This document shows, piece by piece, positions 3,112 through 32,983 of a stretch of 46,054 nucleotides of DNA (position 1 is the stretch's first letter; every line of letters begins with the position of its first letter). Position numbers and translations under genes: made by a program. Below the pieces are notes generated by a model, which saw only the letters and a list, made by a program, of their open reading frames with translations, was not told the origin of the DNA and made no database searches. Source of the DNA: Microcaldota archaeon (GTDB lineage: Archaea; Micrarchaeota; Micrarchaeia; Anstonellales; Bilamarchaeaceae). Location: positions 1 to 46,054 of the forward strand of contig JAFGPA010000038.1 in the NCBI GenBank assembly GCA_016926175.1, read 5' to 3'.

Positions 3112-3244
3112 AAATTTTCCTTGAATAATGCTCATGTTCAAATTGAAACTTCGTTTAAATGAACCACAGAACAAAGTTCTGCCGGCCATCAAACTTCATG
3201 AGAATAATAAACGAAACAAAGAAAAATAATAAAGGAAAAGGTTT
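3112..3244. other. Intergenic stretch between tRNA-Ala and zinc-ribbon gene
   Basis: AT-rich. It contains a small hairpin (AGAAC/GTTCT near 3173-3184). The segment around 3120-3155 resembles the 3' half of the two-copy RNA element described at 28398 and 32678 (TTGAA...TTCAA followed by GAAACTT). The similarity is too short to call a third copy. No coding signal was seen. Confidence 0.3.
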
Positions 3245-28356: not shown

Positions 28357-28397
28357 GATAAATCCCTATGAATGATTTCCTACTATGAATTACTGTG

Positions 28398-28458
28398 TTT
28401 GATGACCAACAGAACCTTATTCTGTGGTCCATTGAAATGAAGCTTCAATTGGAAACTT
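28398..28458 (+). ncRNA. Two-hairpin structured RNA element, copy A
   Basis: TTTGAT leads into stem 1 (GACCA, bulged A, CAGAA, loop CCTTA, TTCTG, TGGTC; 28404-28429), a single C, then stem 2 (ATTGAA, 7-base loop, TTCAAT; 28431-28449), then TGGAAACTT. Copy B at 32678 has the same layout, bulge and loop size with compensatory changes in both stems. The strand is tentative because hairpins read both ways; a TATA-like box favours plus. No known RNA family was recognised. Confidence 0.6.
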
Positions 28459-28487
28459 TAACCTTGTAAAGGCACAGGAAAATTTTC

Positions 28488-28560
28488 GGGGGAATGGGCT
28501 AACCTGGTATGCTGTCAGCTTTGGGAGCTGGTGATCTGTGTTCAAATCACAGTTCCCCCA
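28488..28560 (+). tRNA. tRNA-Pro (TGG), no intron
   Basis: GGGGGAA/TTCCCCC acceptor stem, A73, anticodon arm TCAGC-TTTGGGA-GCTGG with TGG, T-arm TTCAAAT within CTGTG/CACAG. It is 73 nt and uninterrupted, and CCA is not encoded. The structured RNA element lies about 30 bases upstream on the same strand. Confidence 0.92.
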
Positions 28561-32572: not shown

Positions 32573-32832
32573 TGCGGTCGCCGGGGAAATCGTTGTGTTT
32601 ACGGTTTCCTGTTTCCGGCAGCCGGAAACTGCAGGCCGTAAACTCAATTTCGAACCCGGGTCGCGAGCTTTTTCCTTTTTGATGACCAATAAAACGATGA
32701 TTCATTTTATGGTCCCCTGAACTCATGGTTCAGGTGGAAACTTCTTGGGTACCCCAAAAAAGTTTCTTGGGAAGCTCGAATCCTGCCATTATCCGTCTGG
32801 CAAACCAAGCCAAAACTCTAGACTACGACCGC
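32573..32832 (-). tRNA. tRNA-Gly (CCC) with three introns
   Basis: GCGGTCG/CGACCGC acceptor stem, A73. Mature D-loop TAG-TGGCAG needs removal of 29 bases (about 32789-32817) in the D-loop. The anticodon arm CGAGC-TTCCCAA-GCTCG (CCC) needs removal of a 98-base intron (32670-32767) at 37/38. The T-arm CCGGG-TTCGAA-N-CCCGG needs removal of about 62 bases (32587-32648) in the T-loop; that segment folds as nested TTTACGG/CCGTAAA and GTTTCCGG/CCGGAAAC helices. The 260-base gene yields a 71-nt tRNA. The 98-base intron carries copy B of the two-hairpin element. Confidence 0.85.
32678..32743 (+). ncRNA. Two-hairpin structured RNA element, copy B (inside tRNA-Gly intron)
   Basis: TTTGAT, stem 1 (GACCA, bulged A, TAAAA / TTTTA, TGGTC; 32684-32714), single C, stem 2 (CCTGAA, 7-base loop, TTCAGG; 32716-32734), then TGGAAACTT. 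It is listed in the same orientation as copy A, which is antisense to the host tRNA; the functional strand is unresolved. Both stems differ from copy A by paired changes while flanks and unpaired positions are kept. Confidence 0.6.
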
Positions 32833-32855
32833 TTAAATGTTCATCCGGGATTAAA

Positions 32856-32983
32856 TGCGGTCGCCGGGATTTGAACCCGGATCATAAGCTTTCTTCGGAT
32901 CTTTGATGAAACTTTGCTTAATAAAGGGCATCACCAAAGTCTCTTGGAAGGCTTAGGTCCTAACCAGATTAGACTACAACCGC
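32856..32983 (-). tRNA. tRNA-Gly (TCC) with intron
   Basis: GCGGTTG/CGACCGC acceptor stem, A73, D-stem GTC/GAC, anticodon arm TAAGC-CTTCCAA-GCTTA (TCC), variable TGAT, T-arm CCGGG-TTCAAAT-CCCGG. A 54-base intron (32891-32944) is at 37/38. On the tRNA strand it shares AGAxACTTT, AAGTTTC and ATCAAA blocks with the tRNA-Gly(CCC) intron next door. It has no T- or D-loop intron. Confidence 0.9.

Follow-up and report, generated by a model that had tools for sequence, protein, structure and literature searches.

A dispersed two-hairpin element in a repeated tRNA intron of a Micrarchaeota archaeon: probable insertion at a recurrent site

The window, i.e. the whole stretch of 46,054 nt analysed here, is contig C6 of the 1.05-Mb draft genome (G000) of an uncultured Micrarchaeota archaeon; among named sequences, its triosephosphate isomerase is matched best by those of Micrarchaeota. 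Two tRNA-Gly genes lie on its minus strand. First in the direction of that strand is tRNA-Gly(TCC) (positions 32856–32983; Rfam RF00005, 53.3 bits), which has one intron. It is followed by tRNA-Gly(CCC) (32573–32832), which has three introns and whose exons match intronless orthologs of relatives. The latter gene was not reported by ARAGORN or Rfam, presumably because the three introns split it. These are found in the D-loop (about 32789–32817), the anticodon loop (32670–32767) and the T-loop (about 32586–32648), the borders of the first and last being uncertain. The T-loop intron contains a 27-nt near-perfect inverted repeat, with arms at 32593–32619 and 32621–32647.

Bulge-helix-bulge borders bear out the lengths that an earlier, sequence-only reading of this DNA had assigned to the anticodon-loop introns, 98 nt in the CCC gene (32670–32767) and 54 nt in the TCC gene (32891–32944), both on the minus strand. 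The helix is of 4 bp, TTCC/GGAA in the former and CTTC/GAAG in the latter, and 3-nt bulges CAA and AAA are present at the exon-intron borders; both introns thus show the archaeal bulge-helix-bulge, with an inner helix that is not canonical. The blocks described as common to the two introns are indeed there (AGARACTTT, AAGTTTC and CATCAAA). Pattern matching places an uninterrupted target, AAGTTTCATCAAA, at 32902–32914 (minus strand) of the TCC intron, which represents an empty site. The CCC intron reads AAGTTT, 53 nt (32685–32737) and CATCAAA, the boundary being ambiguous by one C. Judged from their sequences, the introns are members of one family, GAAACTTT...AAAGTTTCATCAAA, termed here the host unit, which is occupied in the CCC gene and empty in the TCC gene.

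The 53-nt segment (32685–32737, minus strand) is a two-hairpin element of the form CC-A-hp1-GG.ACC-hp2-T-GGT and scores 80.2 bits against a covariance model. It folds as two adjacent hairpins (−20.9 kcal/mol; z −5.2 relative to mononucleotide shuffles), and the predicted fold without the 53 nt keeps the anticodon stem, the 5' intron hairpin and the 3-nt bulges. The general form is CC-R-hp1-GG.ACC-hp2-Y-GGT, about 48–60 nt with imperfect hairpins, preceded by T and followed by C. Hairpin hp1 and the reverse complement of hp2 have the common form CC-R-stem-GG, i.e. they are imperfect palindromes in inverted orientation.

Good model matches in this genome are the CCC intron, a copy A elsewhere in the window and one on contig C18, to which a degenerate match can be added. 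Copy A is 48 nt long (28405–28452, minus strand; 71% identity by blastn, 65.7 bits). The sequence-only reading had noted that it has the same flanks as the intron copy, and it proves to sit inside an intergenic copy of the host repeat (28390–28487, minus strand, 3' end approximate), which abuts the tRNA-Pro 5' end at 28488. The degenerate element (3132–3193, plus strand, 27.7 bits) lies in a degenerate occupied host unit (3113–3204, plus strand) that abuts the 5' end of a tRNA-Ala gene at 3112. A third intergenic occupied unit in this genome is beside tRNA-Leu on C18 (locus L147, about 157–256). In this genome, every intergenic unit with a hairpin pair (three in all) is directly next to a gene for tRNA-Ala, tRNA-Pro or tRNA-Leu, at the 5' end of that gene and with the host-unit 5' end first.

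Stretches that resemble the element were found by DNA search in genomes of the same genus. Ten copies, taken from this search, the window and a regular-expression scan, were aligned as CC-R-hp1-GG.ACC-hp2-Y-GGT. In this alignment 99.5% of cells are paired, a proportion that drops to 25–51% when the partners are slid, and compensatory changes are present at 11 of 21 pairs, in both stems. The covariance model has matches in 21 of 43 family genomes, with up to 52 in one genome (both strands counted, because the element is nearly palindromic), and in a few genomes of two other families of the order. G001, G020 and G024 are rich in the element. Rfam scans around the element loci found few tRNAs, as split genes are missed. 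A bulged R-Y pairing, which would form a three-way junction, seemed to covary in the ten copies but not in 75, where 34 Watson-Crick pairs compare with 31.5 expected; it was therefore rejected. Longer arrays, in which at least three hairpins are assembled from modules like those of the element, were seen at L274 (G008), L083, L109, L156 and L158.

How common is the target? In the 43 genomes of the family there are 110 occurrences of the joined 13-mer AAGTTTCATCAAA, compared with 4 of a reversed control pattern, and the 13-mer is present in 17 of 17 genus genomes. Read in context, its matches form the core of the host unit GAAACTTT...AAAGTTTCATCAAA. Host units constitute introns in the D-, anticodon and T-loops of genes for tRNA-Gly, Val, Ala, Leu, Ser and others. 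They also interrupt 23S rRNA genes, where four loci were confirmed by Rfam (L192, L209, L225 and L239, apparently three positions). At gene starts the unit is in reverse orientation, and its end supplies GGAGGAAAGTTTC just before ATG; at L175, L177, L180, L213 and L243, reversed units end at apparent start codons as GGAGGAAAGTTTC(A)ATG, which is Shine-Dalgarno-like. At L176 (G009:C2, about 69200–69480), tRNA-Gly(TCC) is followed by tandem partial copies, in each of which a host unit is linked with tRNA 3' sequence. Host units also seem to interrupt a conserved non-tRNA RNA, C/D box-like by eye, at L167, L170, L215, L223 and L232; Rfam gave no match for the four such loci that were scanned.

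Do the flanks form part of the element, or do they mark a preferred target? This choice had been left undecided. In six genus genomes the 13-mer is present and no element was detected, and four family genomes (G019, G020, G022, G026) have the hairpin pair and no 13-mer. As each occurs in genomes without the other, element and host unit are separable, and the flanks are therefore the target, a separate host repeat, and not part of the element. Outside the genus, only part of the element copies have the TT and CATC flanks.

Orthologous sites in relatives bear on the idea that the two tRNA-Gly introns represent occupied and empty states of one site. At the tRNA-Gly(CCC) anticodon intron, the hairpin pair is found only in G000. 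It is absent from all four other genus genomes that have an intron there (G001, G002, G014, G016), of which the G002 intron differs in sequence; this is the comparison among relatives that had been proposed. Seven genomes have no intron at this site (G003, G005, G007, G011, G013, G015 and, from adjacent matches, G006). At the tRNA-Pro site of copy A, the host unit is empty in G009, G011 and G015, truncated in G013 and missing from eight genomes; at the same insertion point G008 has a multi-hairpin insert and G012 another hairpin pair. The CCC introns of relatives, and copy A and its empty orthologs, were compared by eye, and the shared CCC stretches are short. A tandem pair of host units in G001 (contig C16, near the contig start of this draft genome) has identical flanks of 37 nt and 29 nt, one unit being empty and the other having 51 extra nt, and together with the orthologous sites it upholds the occupied/empty interpretation. 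G021:C20 has a diverged tandem pair, empty and occupied. The tRNA-Val gene of G001 and the tRNA-Ala(CGC) gene of G009 each combine an empty D-loop unit with an occupied anticodon-loop unit. A second insertion point, again between TT and CATC, is present in G009 and G015; these loci are orthologous and are therefore counted once. No target-site duplication was found at the element insertions beyond the one ambiguous base.

The copies are dispersed, their presence or absence at a site is exact, the insertion point is recurrent and the stems have compensatory changes; these are direct observations. Most probably, the tRNA-Gly(CCC) gene acquired a dispersed double-hairpin element by insertion between TTT and CATC of its anticodon-loop intron. 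Could the hairpins instead have arisen at the loop itself, through template switching or the formation of palindromes during replication? Several different hairpin sets are found at one point, stem arms change together, and some pairs lie within a loop of another hairpin (10 of 75 copies with type II outer repeats, relative to about 1% in shuffles). Growth in place is thus possible for some inserts, as G008 and G012 hold other hairpins and some pairs are nested. The core CC-R...GGACC...Y-GGT, however, is common to unrelated sites and to different genera, which is not expected from independent growth, and as an explanation of the element it appears unlikely.

The alternative of insertion or loss had been left undecided by the sequence-only reading. 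With loss, the pair would be ancestral in the introns, and both the TCC copy and the relatives would have lost it by precise excision. Presence and absence alone give no direction, and the G001:C16 tandem pair fits excision equally well. Yet loss would call for independent exact events at the tRNA-Pro site and in each of the four CCC orthologs. Empty units are present in six genus genomes in which no element was detected, and in G008 and G012 the same point holds different hairpins. Occupied sites are few and scattered, and empty ones are the general condition, also where the element was not detected. Insertion is favoured because it needs one event per occupied site, as opposed to repeated exact excisions. 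Parsimony over these counts, on an unrooted comparison of sequences, thus resolves the difference between the CCC and TCC introns as insertion, and loss is considered quite improbable.

A further proposal is that the pair represents a small structured RNA, with a guide or regulatory role, hosted by introns and intergenic sites. Archaea are known to have small RNAs in introns, and the compensatory changes in both stems are in keeping with such a role. There is, however, no Rfam match at curated thresholds, the loops and stem sequences vary freely, and copy number ranges from zero in many close relatives to high values in others, so that a hosted functional RNA seems very unlikely. Coincidence, to which the short, A+T-rich blocks and the poor alignment of the remainder of the two introns might point, is refuted by the counts, as the shared blocks exceed chance expectation (the 13-mer relative to its reversed control) and recur in introns of many tRNA genes.

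With insertion as the preferred reading, how would the element be accommodated? The host intron family is itself a repeat, present in tRNA introns, in 23S rRNA genes and at the 5' ends of genes, which like the hairpin pair comes and goes among related genomes; the TCC intron represents an intact target. The element would move as DNA. tRNA genes may tolerate it inside an intron whose bulge-helix-bulge stays intact, since it does not affect the splice sites and an ARMAN-2-type splicing endonuclease is encoded; it would be discarded with the intron by this predicted epsilon2 enzyme. A 389-aa endonuclease encoded in the genome matches ARMAN-2 EndA (4fz2) over its length (E 9.6e-125), and cleavage of non-canonical introns has been reported for the ARMAN-2 epsilon2 enzyme type (PMC4033280, PMC12397907). 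At G000:C2:956–1198 (L288) the genome also encodes a second and shorter protein that has a tRNA splicing endonuclease domain (PF01974, 40.6 bits). A broader and more tentative proposal, about which we have considerable doubt, is that of a two-level mobile system. An intron-like repeat might spread into tRNA, rRNA and gene 5' ends, where it could settle because a broad-specificity splicing endonuclease removes it, and a second, transposase-less hairpin element might land specifically in a loop of that intron.

In part, the element matches features of several described systems. Double-hairpin elements are found in fungal mitochondrial DNA (Paquin et al., 2000, as cited in PMC5910586), and mitochondrial DNA also has other repetitive elements that form hairpins (PMC2800124). 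The archaeal element has, like the mitochondrial double-hairpin elements, two adjacent hairpins, dispersed copies, presence or absence at orthologous sites and no known enzyme. It differs by its location in an archaeal chromosome and by an insertion point in a tRNA-intron repeat, and the likeness considered here is one of features. Bacterial REPINs, which are associated with RAYT transposases (PMC3116915), are also pairs of imperfect palindromes, inverted relative to each other, and are dispersed for the most part outside genes; in contrast to these, the element has no associated RAYT/Y1 transposase in the 43 family genomes and inserts into intron loops. In the tRNA intron transposition of Thermoproteales (Fujishima et al., 2010, as described in PMC4033280), similar introns likewise occupy several positions in different tRNA genes, with multiple introns per gene, but the intron family found here extends to 23S rRNA and the 5' ends of genes and has a nested second element. 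No description of the elements was found in a limited set of open-access literature, largely titles and abstracts.

Intron gain in archaeal tRNA genes is an old question. Here the orthologous sites of one genus directly display the gain of introns, their repetition and insertions nested in them, with the states before and after side by side. The findings suggest an archaeal chromosomal counterpart of the mitochondrial double-hairpin elements, and one defined landing point together with one splicing enzyme offers a concrete system for testing mobility without an evident transposase. Should the two-level proposal hold true, archaeal tRNA introns would be safe havens for nested mobile DNA.

A mover or carrier was also searched for. 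No viral contig matched the element pattern, and viral carriers were rejected; the 17-mer host motif has 29 matches in viral contigs, judged by rough arithmetic to be about the chance level given the size of the collection. Some G001 copies have long conserved flanks and form repeats of 120–160 bp. Two such flanks were translated, in which no transposase was recognised and no autonomous relative with the same ends, as expected for a MITE or an IS200/IS605-derived element, was found. A Y1 transposase was rejected as the mover, as it shows no association with the element: it is present in 6 of the 21 genomes that carry the element and in 4 of the 22 that lack it (Fisher p 0.49), counts taken from draft genomes that may miss genes. 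A single case of proximity was seen at G024:C97, where a truncated Y1 reading frame lies about 200–370 bases from two element copies.
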